Source: Porodaedalea pini
Taxonomy: Eukaryota; Basidiomycota; Agaricomycetes; Hymenochaetales; Hymenochaetaceae
Reading direction: 5' to 3'
Assembly: GCA_002794775.1 (NCBI GenBank)
Contig: NBAY01000009.1
Location: 496,001-560,000, forward strand
DNA: 64,000 nucleotides
A program made the position numbers and the translations under genes. Below, piece by piece: positions 32,472 to 39,868 of this stretch. The first letter of the stretch is position 1, and every line of letters starts with the position of its first letter. Below the pieces are notes generated by a model. That model had not been told where the DNA came from. It made no database searches and was given only the letters and a program-made list of their open reading frames with translations.

Positions 32472-33677
32472 ATGGCATCCTCCTCCTCTTCCGCTCCCAT
32501 TTCTTTCAAGCTCCCGGACTTCGTCTCCATGTCGAAGCTGACCCCATCCGTCAAGAAGGACTTTAAACAGGCTGGCGCAGACTCGCTCGCATGGTTCGAC
32601 ACCTTCGGCGTTCTCTCTGCGCGCAAGCGCAAGATCTTCATCAAATCAGACGCCGACCTCCTTGTGGCGTACACCTATCCGTATGCTGGGGATGAAGAGT
32701 ATCGCACGTGTCTGGACTTTATCAGCCTGCTCTTTGCGCTGGATGAGATCACGGACGACCAGGGTGCCGATGACGCGCGGAAAACGATGGCATCTTTCCT
32801 CCACACTCTTGATGGAGAGGCATGCGATGGGACTGTTATTTCCCGCATGACAGCGAGGTAAACTCTCCCATCCTTCACATATACATAATTTTTGCTCATC
32901 TTACCCTTTATTCTCGCTTGTTGTAGTTTCCGAGCACGCTTGCTCCTCAAGATCGGTCCGCGGTCGATGCGCCGTTTGGTCCAAGCCTGCAGCTCGTACA
33001 TCGACGCAGTCTGCCAAGAGGCGGCACTGCGCGAGCGCGGCGAGGTGCTCGGCCTCGAGGAATACCGGGTTCTCCGCAGAGAGAACATTGCCCTTCGTCT
33101 ATGCTTCAGCCTTTTCGAGTACTGCTTCGGCTTTGACCTGCCTGACGAGGTGGGCTCGCGTTCACTCTACTTTAAAAATAGCCTTCATACTGATGCGGAT
33201 ACCATCATTTTCAAGGTCTTTGAAGACCCGACATTTGTGCGCATGTTCTACGGCGCCGTTGACATGATCGCCCTCTCCAACGTGAGTCTATCTCCTTCGC
33301 CTTAGTCTATCAGCTCAGATACTAAATCACTTAAATAGGACCTCTACTCTTACAACATGGAGCAGGCGCGTGAAGGCCACTCATGCTCAAACATCGTCAC
33401 CGTCATCATGAAGGAGAAACTGCTCTCTTTACAAGATACAGTCGACTTCGTTGGCGCTGATTTCAAGACGCTGCTGTCCGACTTTGCTGACGACAAGAAA
33501 GCTCTGCGCTCGTTCGGCAAGGAGACAGACGAGGATGTGAGGCGCTTCGTCGGAGCGCTCGAGACGTGGATAATCGGAAACATCTGTTGGAGCTTCGCGA
33601 CGCGACGCTACTTCGGGCGCGAGCACGAGGAGATCCGAAAGACGCTCGTTGTCAGGCTTGCGGAGAGAATACAGTGA
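32472..33677 (+). CDS. Sesquiterpene synthase (class I terpene cyclase)
   Basis: Cytosolic Mg2+-dependent enzyme of about 359 aa that ionises farnesyl diphosphate and cyclises it to a sesquiterpene. Three exons: 32472-32857, 32927-33281 and 33339-33677. The aspartate-rich metal motif is DEITDDQG (residues about 95-102). The NSE triad is NDLYSYNMEQARE, with N and D on either side of intron 2. The C-terminal WSF...RYFG segment carries the usual Arg-Tyr diphosphate sensor pair. Length and motifs match agaricomycete synthases; the product cannot be predicted. There is no P450 beside it, but a mevalonate kinase module lies 0.9 kb downstream on the other strand. Confidence 0.93.
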
Positions 33678-34603: not shown

Positions 34604-36344
34604 TTAGACGTACAACCACCTGCCGCGCTGCTCCGCCCAGCCGGCAAAGTCGACAGGGGCGGCGTTCTCAAACACCGAGCGCAGTGACGATGGCTGCACC
34701 GCGTCCCCGGTGTGGGCGGAGCCAGGTGTGTCTGGTGGAGTTGCGGGACCGCCATATGCACTGACGGGGTGCTCTTCCGAAGCGGCGTGGGGAGAGAGCA
34801 CGCCCACGCCAGAGCCACCGACAGATGTCAGGTACGGCTCAAACCCATCCGCGCGCAGCTCACTCATTAGCTGCTTTAATTTGTCTTCCGAAAAGCCTGG
34901 ATACGATGGTACGAGTCAGTGACCAGCAAGATAACACGACGATGCACTCGTTTGGGGGGGGGGGGGGTCGGCGAAACGTGTGATGGTGTGAGTACGTACC
35001 GTCAGGAACTAGGGTCACCGCACATCCGCCGCCTCCGGCGCCGGTGAGTTTCGTCTGCAAGTCGTACGCTGACGTCTTGGACTTAATCGCCTCGAGAGCG
35101 GGATGAGACACACCCAAGTCGCGCAGGTGAGCGTGATTTTCGTTGATAAGGCTCTGTTAAGATGCTTTAAGGATGCATTGAACTTTTGCGTATAATTTCT
35201 GGAAGCGCACCCCAATTCCACTTAGCTGATCTTCACGGGGAAGTTCTGGATCAGCAAGGACGCGGCGCGCCTCGTCACTGATATTTTGAATTGCCTCTAA
35301 TAGTCCGTTGACATACTCCGGATCCTACATAGCAAATATGTTGAGTAATTGTTACGAAAGATAGCGAAGCGGCACAAACATTCTGCTTCTTGAGTGCCAC
35401 ACCAGCAACAAGCGCCTTGGTGTTCCTTGGGACTTTCGTATCGATAAGCAGGAACTTCAAGGACTTGAAGCTACAACAGCCCCGATTTAGTCAACAGCAT
35501 ATGTAATCAAACCAACAACGTACCCGTGAATGGGTTCCATGCCGCCTTTCTTCCCAAAGCCCGGTCGAGTGTACGCAAGGGCGCCTCCGAAGACGGAGAC
35601 GCAATTGTCCACGCCACTTGGATTGCCGTGGAGAACCTTCTCCGCAACAAACGCCCAGCGGTTGATCTCCTCCGCCACATCCGCCGGAAGTGCGCGCCTC
35701 CCCTGATGACTCACATGCACGTGTCCCGGGTCCTCCGCGCCCGTCGGCGGGACAGTAGGAGCGGGGAGCGGCGGCACCGCGACGCGCTTTAGGACCAGCA
35801 GCAGTGTGCTCGCTGCGCATGAGGAGAACGACGCGGAGGAACCGAGGCCCGCGCCGACGGGTAGCGTGCTGCGTGCGCTGAAGTGTAACGCGGGGCGCGC
35901 GGCTGCATCATGTGTAAGCGTCATGTAGAGATAAAGGAACGTGAGCGCAGCGTTGCGCGCGGCCGGAACGTCGTGCGTTGAGACTGGGAGCGCACGGGTG
36001 GAAAGCGCCTCGATGAGTTTAGGGTCAAGCGTGTCTGGGTGGTCTGTACCAGGCGGAACATGCGTTGCGGCATCCCATGGAAGGCTGTCGATATCCCATT
36101 CGTGACGATAGTCTCCGAGGTCTGTGAAGTGAACGGAAATCTTGTTGTCCTGTCGAGGTGTCGTAAGCCCATAGCAGCGCAGGTCTACTGAAGCCGCTAG
36201 TGCAGTCTATTATAAGCAACAACTCTGTTCAGTGGTCGCAAACGATTTTAGAAAGAAAGAAAAAAGACTTACAACGCCATGTACGACAGCGTGTTCGCCA
36301 AATAGAATGACTTTACCCGGTGCGCTGACGAACCATTCTCTATC
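34604..36344 (-). CDS. ERG12: Mevalonate kinase module (3' part of a fused frame)
   Basis: GHMP kinase that phosphorylates mevalonate in isoprenoid synthesis. Motifs: N-terminal SAPGKVILFGEHAVVHG, then TALAASVDLRCYGL, the ATP loop LPVGAGLGSSASFSSC, GNPSGVDNCVSVFGG, FLLIDTKVPRNTKALVAGV and C-terminal LTGAGGGGCAVTL. The stop is at 34604. Known exons: the end of 36603-36273, 36206-35524 and one starting at 35470. The exon that begins this domain (36603-36273) opens with the last part of cystathionine beta-lyase in the same frame, with no stop and no ATG between. The kinase therefore appears to be made only as the C-terminal half of a bifunctional protein. A 14-G run lies in one of its introns. 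Confidence 0.92.
34954..34967 (+). repeat. Poly-G homopolymer (14 G)
   Basis: An uninterrupted run of G on the plus strand inside a mevalonate kinase intron. It is prone to length variation and sequencing error but lies outside coding exons. Confidence 0.9.
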
Positions 36345-37850
36345 ATCCTTGCCGCGTCCTTCCGGCTCGTTAAGCGCAAGTTTCTCGACTGCACGACTGA
36401 TTGCGTGGCCTTCGCGCTTCAAGGAAGCGCGGACGTAGTGGAGCCTATCAACACCTTGTTCGAGCGTAATAGCACCCGCTTCGAGCAAGGCGTGCTCGAG
36501 GTCATCGAGGAGATCAGCGGTGTCTTCGATTCCGACGCAAAGACGGATGAGATCCTCCGGAAGACCGCGTTCCGCGCGTGTAGCAGCGTCAATCGAAGCA
36601 TGCCTAGAATGATGAAGATAAATAAGAATGATTTGGTAACAACAACTTGATACTGAGGACGTACGACATGACGCAGGGCATGCTGATGAGCGAGTTCACG
36701 CAGCCAAAGCTCACACTGATGCCCCAGAGGCGCGTCGCTCCAACGATGCGCTCGCTAAGCGCCTTGTCTCCGGTCTTGAAACTCAAGACAGCACCCGGCC
36801 CACTTGCGATGCGCTCGTGGATTTCGCGACCAGGATGATTCTCCAAGCCCGGGTAGTGAACAGTAAAGCCGAGTCTGTCGAGCATGGTCGCAACGGCCAT
36901 CGCGGAGGACTGCTGACGATCCATACGTATGGCAAGCGTCTTCGTCCCGCGCAGAAGCAGGAACGCGTCGAACGGCGAAAGCCCATTGCCGATGGTGTTT
37001 ATAGTGAATGCTATGTGCTGCGTGTATGTCAGAGCGCGATCAAAACGAAAAGAAAAAAGGGCGCACCTTTCCGAGATCATCGCGGTTACAAGTGATGATG
37101 CCCGCCATGAGGTCATGATGTCCGCTCAAGTACTTTGTTGCACTGTCATAGACAATGTCTGCGCCATGTTCGAGTGGCCTTTGCAAATAGGGACTCATCA
37201 TCGTGTTGTCGACAACAACGATCGCCTCCGGAGCGCGCTCTTTCACGTCGGCGGAGATCTTCGCGAGGTCTGCGATCTTGAGCAGCGGGTTCGTCGGGCT
37301 CTCGAGCAGAACCATCGCGGTCTTGCCCGCCTTGATATACGGCAGGATGCTCTCCGCGTTCGTAGTGTCGACGTGGTGCACGATGACGCCGCCGTGCGAC
37401 TTGAGGTAGCCCAGCAGGCGGTTCGTCCCGCCGTACAAGTCGTCGCCGGCAATGACCTCGTCGCCAGGCTTCAAAAGGCGAGTGATCACGTCCATGGCAG
37501 CCATTCCGGACGACACGGCGAACGCGTGCTCCGCGGACGATATCTTCGCCAGGTGGTGCTCTACACATCAGAACAAGCAGAACAACAGTAAATGCATGCC
37601 ATCACACGCAGGAAAGCAGAAAGCACTCACCGAGATGGCTCCTGGTTGGGTTGCCGCTGCGTGTGTAGTCATACTCGCCAGCGACGCCCTTGAATGTCGC
37701 AGTCTGATAAATGGGTACCGAGCTCGCCGCATACTGATCTTTCATGTCCGGGTTCTCGACTGTCGCGCATAGTGTCGCGAAGCGGTATGGCTTGCGCGGG
37801 GCGCGCGGAGACTCGGGCCCCGGCGTTGGTAGGTCAAAGTTATTGGCCAT
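36345..37850 (-). CDS. STR3: Cystathionine beta-lyase module (5' part of a fused frame)
   Basis: PLP-dependent Cys/Met-metabolism enzyme, expected to split cystathionine to homocysteine. Exons 37850-37631, 37560-37067, 37017-36665 and 36603-36273 are fully phase-consistent. Motifs: YDYTRSGNPTRSHLEHHLAK, SSGMAAMDVI, VVVDNTMMSPY, the Schiff-base lysine in SATKYLSGHHDLMAG, and the C-terminal RGLPEDLIRLCVGIED. The lyase core ends near 36467 (LEHALLEAGAI). About 40 linker residues then lead without a stop into mevalonate kinase. The lyase versus gamma-synthase call rests on overall resemblance. If the first kinase intron is retained, a stop follows within about 20 codons. Confidence 0.9.
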
Positions 37851-38309
37851 GGTGTGTTATCTCCACTGGTGATGGATGGAGAGAAAAGAGGACAAGACAC
37901 AAGAATGTTGGGGAGCGCTGTGCTTGCCGACGATGGCGTGCTTGTATGCAAGCCAATACGGCCGAAGCGCGGATATTAATGTCTTCTTTTCAACAAAATC
38001 GGAAACAAAATAAAGTAGAAAATCAGCCGTGAACGACGAAAGACCGGCCTACACAAGAACTCTATAAACAAAGAATGAACAGATAAACCTGAGATTCACT
38101 ATATATGTTATTCTTTAGTTGTAGGGCTGAGCACATCGGCCTTTGCCGACTGACTCAGATGCTTTTGTCTAACTTAAGAAACGCGGCGGGTAGGATACTA
38201 TTATTAGGAAAGAAACGTGAAGCTTAAGGCCTGCGTGTTCGCATAATATACAAACAAGACTAGACGGCGAAAATTGAAATAAGGTAGTCGAACATCGAGA
38301 TCCCTTCTC
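37851..38309. other. Upstream region of the fused gene
   Basis: Separates the lyase start from the 3' end of the intradiol dioxygenase gene, which is on the same strand. It must contain the promoter of the fused gene. No gene was seen. Confidence 0.5.
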
Positions 38310-39868
38310 TCAAAACCATCCGGTCTTCGCGTTGAGACGAAATTCAGCAGTCGCTCCTGCAGCGATCTTCAACCCGGGCTCACTCATCTGCCCAAGTTTC
38401 GAATTCCACCACTCAACACGCTTTCGCGTAACCTCATCGTTGGATGGAAGCACCGGAAAGTCTTTATACGGCCTCCCCTCATCAACGTCCTTGTCCGGTA
38501 CGCTCCAGGCCTGCACCATATTCCCCTCACGTGTCTTGCGCATATAATTCACACTTCACTAATTATCAGACAACGCGAGCGAAACAAAAGTCGAGACAAG
38601 ATGCACGTACAAGTCGCTCCTAATTAATTGTATATCATTCGCCTCACAGACGTACATTTGCGTCGTCAAGTCGTCGTATCCTACCGTACCCGGCGGTGCA
38701 GGCGGGGCGTGCACCCACATGTGAAAGTGCGCCGCGCGCATACCTCCTGCGACGCCATACGCACCCGGCGCGACTGTAAGTACCTCGGCGTAGCCCTGGT
38801 CGTCGGTCACGATGCGCCCGCGCAGTGTATATGTCGAGAAATAGTAGCTGCCCGACGTGTCTGCTTGCCACCAGTCGAGCACCGCACCAGGGAGTGGGGA
38901 TCCGTCCGGGGACAGCACACGCACTGTCATGAGAAACGGACGGAACTCTGGCGAGTCGACAGTAAGTTCCCAGCTGTAATGAACAAATTCTTGGCAATAA
39001 CTGACTCTTCAAGAGTGAGACAGGAGCCAAGATGGCTTTGCCTTTCTCGATTCGCCTGTCTGGAGAATCGAGGATATAGAAGGGGCCTTTCAGCGGAAGT
39101 CAGAAACTTCGACCGGGAGTGTAGGCCGTGCAAGCAACGTACCCTCTACGTCAGCTTGCTTGTTGCGTTTCCCTAGCCAGAAGCTCCAGAGGAATGGATT
39201 TTCATAAGTGCTGAGCATCGCAAGTAGCCTGATCCCGCTTTTGACAAGCGTTGAGTACGAGACAGGAAAAGAAGCAAACTCCAGAGTCGTTGAAGACACT
39301 TCACTCATCGCAGTTCCGTAGTGCAAACAGTAGGAGGATAGGGGGAGGGAAAGCACTGAGCATTCTTCCCATCACCAGGGCATTTTAAAGCCCGTTCGGC
39401 CCCAGAGGATCTACTTCGCCTACCACCCAAATCAATACGCTAGACTTTCCGGGGCGTACGCGAACGGCATCTTTCGGACCTATAAACAAGCGCGCATTTC
39501 ACCGACACACGCCCATTGAGCGTGGACAGCTGTGAAGTTTAGTTCTCTTGTGAGCGACATTAAAAGTGCCTCGTGATTTGTAGGGATCCGAGTCGGAATG
39601 GTCTCTTCTTCAATTCACTTAGGATATAAACTTGACCACGCTTGTCCTGACTTGCTGATGCGTGCCTTTCAGCTTGAAAGAGTTGAGTCACATGTTAGTC
39701 GTCCGAGTCGAAATCCTAGGTTAGCGCTTCAGGGACAGCCCAAGTCATGAGCCCGGATGAGTTCGAATTTGAGGAGCTTGTAGTCTTTGACTTGAAGTAA
39801 TACGCGCGGAGTCACTGGTAACTGGAGCTTGAGAGAAAAAGATATACCTCCAGAACTGGGTGATTCTG
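38075..39868. repeat. Segmental tandem duplication, unit 1
   Basis: This unit and the one at 39975-41507 share diverged similarity along their length. The start has gaacagataaacctgagatt in unit 1 versus gaacaagtaaacctgagatt in unit 2. The dioxygenase body matches, and the end has ccagaactgggtgattc versus ccagaatcgggtgatcc. It contains the intact intradiol dioxygenase gene. Borders are approximate. Confidence 0.75.
38310..39308 (-). CDS. Intradiol ring-cleavage dioxygenase
   Basis: Non-haem Fe(III) dioxygenase of the catechol/hydroxyquinol 1,2-dioxygenase type, cleaving aromatic diols between the hydroxyls (lignin-derived aromatics in wood decayers). The start MSEVSSTTLEFASF at 39308 leads to an N-terminal helical part, then DVEGPFYILDSP, VRVLSPDGSPLPGAVLDWWQ, the tyrosine ligand region GSYYFSTYTLRGRI, the histidine ligands in MRAAHFHMWVHAP, and a C-terminal SVPDKDVDEGRPYKDFP. 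There are about four exons. No signal peptide is evident, so it is probably cytosolic. A decayed copy lies immediately beyond it. The exact substrate cannot be told. Confidence 0.88.

Follow-up and report, generated by a model that had tools for sequence, protein, structure and literature searches.

A probable cystathionine beta-lyase–mevalonate kinase fusion gene in Porodaedalea pini, of a kind already known from Basidiomycota

Within the window, a 64,000-nucleotide stretch of the Porodaedalea pini genome, the minus strand from 37850 to 34604 very probably carries the basidiomycete STR3/metC-MVK fusion, a gene whose single mRNA would encode a 910-residue protein with a PLP-dependent cystathionine beta-lyase as its N-terminal half and a GHMP-type mevalonate kinase as its C-terminal half. 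The two enzymes, which belong to methionine synthesis and to the synthesis of sterols and terpenes, are normally separate proteins. This fusion is a known and widespread oddity of Basidiomycota and has been in print since 2012. The first-pass annotation had placed two enzyme halves in one protein, which is upheld by the reading frame, the family matches, and RNA-derived sequences from relatives, whereas the novelty that it implied is not.

Structure of the gene and its fused frame

Nine exons join into a single frame of 910 codons plus a stop, in keeping with the roughly 900 residues first estimated for the joined product, and the eight introns, which range from 49 to 103 bases, have GT-AG ends in every case (8/8). 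The evidence for this gene in P. pini is genomic DNA, from which its splice sites were picked by eye. Its exons are as follows.

37631..37850, minus strand: exon 1, lyase, residues 1-73; ATG at 37850; Pfam PF01053 from residue 34
37067..37560, minus strand: exon 2, lyase, residues 74-238; SATKYLSGH at residues 213-221 with the presumed PLP lysine K216; aligned to 1ibj
36665..37017, minus strand: exon 3, lyase, residues 239-355
36273..36603, minus strand: exon 4 (fusion exon), end of the lyase, linker (about residues 396-446) and start of the kinase with SAPGKVILFGEHAVVHG; boundaries from family matches
35524..36206, minus strand: exon 5, kinase; GAGLGSSAS at residues 584-592 and EKVLHGNPSGVDN at residues 655-667
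35380..35470, minus strand: exon 6, kinase
35211..35324, minus strand: exon 7, kinase
35000..35153, minus strand: exon 8, kinase; KLTGAGGGGC at residues 797-806
34604..34896, minus strand: exon 9, C-terminus of the kinase and stop codon

The two halves meet inside exon 4, which spans 331 bases, has an entry phase of 2 and an exit phase of 0, starts with HASIDAATRAERGLPEDLIR, and carries SAPGKVILFGEHAVVHG close to its end. The coordinates, the phases, and the passage from a lyase block to a kinase block had all been claimed in the first-pass annotation and were reproduced on splicing, as was the lack of any stop or ATG between the halves in the kinase frame. An open exon 4 is by itself weak evidence, because 859 of the 18,192 stretches of 110 codons that were sampled in the window on both strands (4.7%) are open by chance. 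The main evidence for the fusion, and it is real evidence, is that curated family matches flank exon 4 in one frame and with matching phases.

Identity of the two halves

When scored against the NCBIfam equivalogs, the N-terminal half reached 534.3 bits with TIGR01329 (eukaryotic cystathionine beta-lyase; cut-off 487.5) and the C-terminal half 202.7 bits with TIGR00549 (mevalonate kinase; cut-off 163.05), while all other NCBIfam models among the best 25 of 51 rows fell below their own cut-offs. The Pfam family Cys_Met_Meta_PP matches residues 34-395 at 421.9 bits (cut-off 27), GHMP_kinases_C is found at 34.5 bits (cut-off 21), and GHMP_kinases_N at 25.3 bits (cut-off 22.3), the latter with no individual stretch reaching the cut-off by itself. 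Among solved structures, the best relative of the lyase half is the cystathionine beta-lyase 1ibj (E 1.3e-107), and those of the kinase half are the mevalonate kinases 2r3v (E 5e-69) and 1kvk (E 5.9e-69). As judged from motif positions and alignments to solved chains, K216 (in SATK), K453, S590, E655, and D666 are all intact; we take K216 to be the PLP lysine of the lyase half and the remaining four to be kinase motif residues. With the PLP lysine motif present, the N-terminal half is predicted to cleave cystathionine, and with the GHMP motifs present, the C-terminal half is predicted to phosphorylate mevalonate.

Alternatives to a single fused protein

The same stretch might instead hold two overlapping genes: intron retention or alternative splicing would end the lyase, and a separate kinase transcript would splice its own first exon to a cryptic acceptor within exon 4. 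Five YAG trinucleotides do occur in exon 4, the last of which ends at 36325, just where the kinase block begins, and the 66-base intron 4, if retained, would add 20 residues before a double stop. However, exon 4 offers the kinase frame no ATG, and tracing this frame upstream of exon 4 leads to a stop before any ATG is reached, while all seven ATGs between 36700 and 36207, with open stretches of 3 to 60 codons, lie outside it. A kinase start with its own ATG in exon 4, which the first-pass annotation had itself raised as an opposing outcome, was sought and rejected because no in-frame ATG is present. Both halves are also found on RNA-derived sequences of two relatives, according to excerpts of PMC3720577 and PMC3846667, and overall we consider two overlapping genes very improbable. 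A switch between protein forms through retention of intron 4 is mechanically possible from the sequence and is otherwise speculation.

It is decidedly unlikely, in our estimation, that the full-length translation product, which is estimated at about 100 kDa, is later cut in its linker to release two enzymes. The linker of about 50 residues does lie outside the stretches that align to solved lyase and kinase chains, whereas a single-sequence structural model of exon 4 predicts a mostly helical linker, albeit at low confidence (mean pLDDT 62.6, with the other four models at 39-44), which is weak either way. Automatic fungal gene models commonly contain false fusions as a matter of general knowledge, and an artefact of assembly or gene modeling could likewise join two neighbors, yet the join here falls inside a single 331-base exon without an intron or gap between the halves. 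Moreover, the same join appears in excerpts of PMC4129116, PMC3720577, PMC3342255, PMC3468542, and PMC3846667, two of which used public genomes that possibly overlap. We therefore give an artefact next to no credence.

The fusion in other basidiomycetes

The lyase–mevalonate kinase fusion is already known from Basidiomycota, and its conservation across the group is stated here as published, from excerpts of the papers cited. A 2012 study reported a "metC-MVK" fusion averaging ~886 aa in 12 basidiomycetes, including Ganoderma lucidum, with Laccaria bicolor as the exception; there, metC-MVK was the sole K00869 homologue among the basidiomycetes analyzed and the only gene with a K01760 best hit, no protein of this type was found outside basidiomycetes within its set, and a conserved 16-aa insertion in the kinase was noted in 7 of 12 species (7/13 in the figure legend) (PMC3342255). 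A second 2012 study described a C-terminal mevalonate kinase of ~450 aa on the STR3 orthologue of every member of the Basidiomycota that it examined, apart from Postia placenta, and found no stand-alone mevalonate kinase in basidiomycetes, whereas the lyase and kinase genes of the ascomycetes examined were separate and apparently unclustered (PMC3468542). A fusion gene of 918 aa has been reported from Lignosus rhinocerotis (PMC4129116), and both halves are carried by a unigene of Pleurocybella porrigens (PMC3720577) and by transcript Psang01106 of Pycnoporus sanguineus (PMC3846667). Since the latter two are RNA-derived, a single mRNA is supported in relatives.

The P. pini gene shares with metC-MVK its domain order, a beta-lyase-type N-terminal half, and its standing as the sole recognized mevalonate kinase homologue, with a length of 910 aa compared to the mean of ~886 aa (PMC3342255). 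With the basidiomycete STR3 it shares the ~450-aa C-terminal kinase extension and the failure to find a stand-alone kinase, while the ascomycete STR3/met-2/metG and ERG12 belong to the same two families but are separate genes (PMC3468542). Nothing in these comparisons showed the P. pini gene to differ from either published description of the fusion, and its short introns, the 53-Mb genome, and the many terpene synthase matches are in keeping with a basidiomycete host. In their excerpts, PMC3342255, PMC3468542, PMC3720577, and PMC3846667 describe what the fusion does, or its relevance, as not known, as being studied, or as requiring study, and among the matches listed for open-licence PubMed Central, no test of what the fused protein does was seen in titles or the beginnings of abstracts.

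It should be noted that one published observation sits badly with this picture. STR3 insertions were recovered in Rhodosporidium toruloides, "suggesting non-essentiality", though they were too rare to score (PMC5922974, in excerpt), which is unexpected if STR3 of this species is fused to its sole, essential mevalonate kinase. Two explanations offer themselves: separate lyase and kinase genes in that lineage, or insertions of mild effect. The excerpts of PMC7396576 (Ustilago maydis) and PMC4393869 (Xanthophyllomyces) list mevalonate kinase without mentioning a lyase or a fusion and are neutral on the matter, and those of PMC3815920 and PMC11121823 do not mention the fusion.

Other kinase and lyase genes in the assembly

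The kinase half, searched against the 53.3-Mb assembly, returned six matches, all of which are exons of the lyase–kinase gene itself. The PF08544 profile gave two matches, namely this gene and C17, and the PF00288 profile gave seven matches and missed this gene. These seven were named from their frames by eye and not through a family test: four (C16, C13, C14, and C20) read as homoserine kinase, one (C17) as galactokinase, and the two on C1 as mevalonate diphosphate decarboxylase (C1:705385) and phosphomevalonate kinase (C1:242287). Thus, no second mevalonate kinase was recognized in the assembly by the kinase-half, PF00288, and PF08544 searches. That the lyase–kinase gene carries the only mevalonate kinase of the genome is a strong lean from these searches, rather than proof, because the six-frame PF00288 search, which ignores introns and scores only the best candidates, missed the very gene in question. 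The homoserine-kinase-like copies at C14, C13, and C20 (L004, L005, and L006) are partial and 96-97% alike across about 3.2 kb including their flanks, which is the full length fetched, whereas their likeness to the longer C16 gene (L001) is about 88% and extends over just 572 bases. They look like a gene fragment within a dispersed repeat.

The lyase half matched C3 and C39 as well, and PF01053 or lyase matches besides C3 were found at C39, C13, C29, C53, and C68. The best lyase paralogue, the C3 frame, is closest among solved structures to cystathionine gamma-lyases (1n8p, 345.7 bits), compared to 303.6 bits for 6cja, a chain named beta-lyase, and 214.5 bits for 1ibj. In a six-frame search with TIGR01329, no single exon reached the cut-off, the exons of the lyase–kinase gene included.

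Possible roles of the join

The lyase reaction converts cystathionine to homocysteine and the kinase reaction converts mevalonate to phosphomevalonate, and because the two share no intermediate, channeling between the halves is not expected. If both halves are active, the protein would serve the cell both as its beta-lyase of transsulfuration and as its mevalonate kinase. As opposed to channeling, the join would most likely serve to place both activities under one promoter with a fixed 1:1 output and perhaps within a shared oligomer or location. Alternatively, the join may have been a neutral event early in Basidiomycota that became fixed since no separate kinase gene remained. The simplest reading would be one of these two: the fixed 1:1 output, or a neutral join made permanent once any separate kinase was lost.

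The first-pass annotation had suggested that the fusion ties methionine supply to isoprenoid entry, which is speculation. In a more specific form, the fusion would act as a regulatory coupler that fixes the ratio of homocysteine, and hence SAM, to isoprenoid entry, so that the supply of methyl donor would match what C-24 methylation of ergosterol requires and a sulfur enzyme would come under the control of sterols. In Ganoderma lingzhi, SREBP is reported to target mevalonate kinase, in a paper whose text does not contain the word "cystathionine" and whose excerpts do not mention the fusion (PMC9810662); the kinase gene concerned would presumably be the lyase–kinase fusion. In the promoter of the P. 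pini gene (37851-38310), neither strand contains CACGTG, the sterol-element-like TCACNCCA, or the GRV repeat described in the Ganoderma SREBP work, and the gene's strand contains no Cys3-like ATGRYRAT; a single generic CANNTG occurs at 38161 and a single TATA-like site at 38105. The sterol- and sulfur-type motifs that would speak for the regulatory coupler are thus missing from this region, and we regard this reading as unlikely.

Shared peroxisomal targeting was also considered as a cause of the join and rejected, as the C-terminus is LYV and so provides no PTS1, while a loose PTS2-like pattern matches only inside conserved domain blocks (residues 79 and 453), which leaves a peroxisomal reading unsupported.

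Neighboring genes

A terpene-synthase-like gene lies tail-to-tail with the lyase–kinase gene at a distance of 0.9 kb (32472-33677, plus strand; three exons, 359 residues). It is intact-looking and contains DEITD, NDLYSYNME, and RY, which we take to be terpene synthase motifs. PF19086 matches the ORF over its exon 2 at 68.3 bits, while its first ORF is without any match, and the gene scored 97.9 bits in the six-frame genome search, from which 19 terpene synthase places were counted among 29 matches. The naive chance of a terpene synthase lying <2 kb from a given gene would be about 0.0014, although this comparison was made after the fact. On the other side, upstream of the fusion and on the same strand, is an intradiol-dioxygenase-like fragment (38559-38930, minus strand) that matches PF00775 Dioxygenase_C at 53.4 bits.
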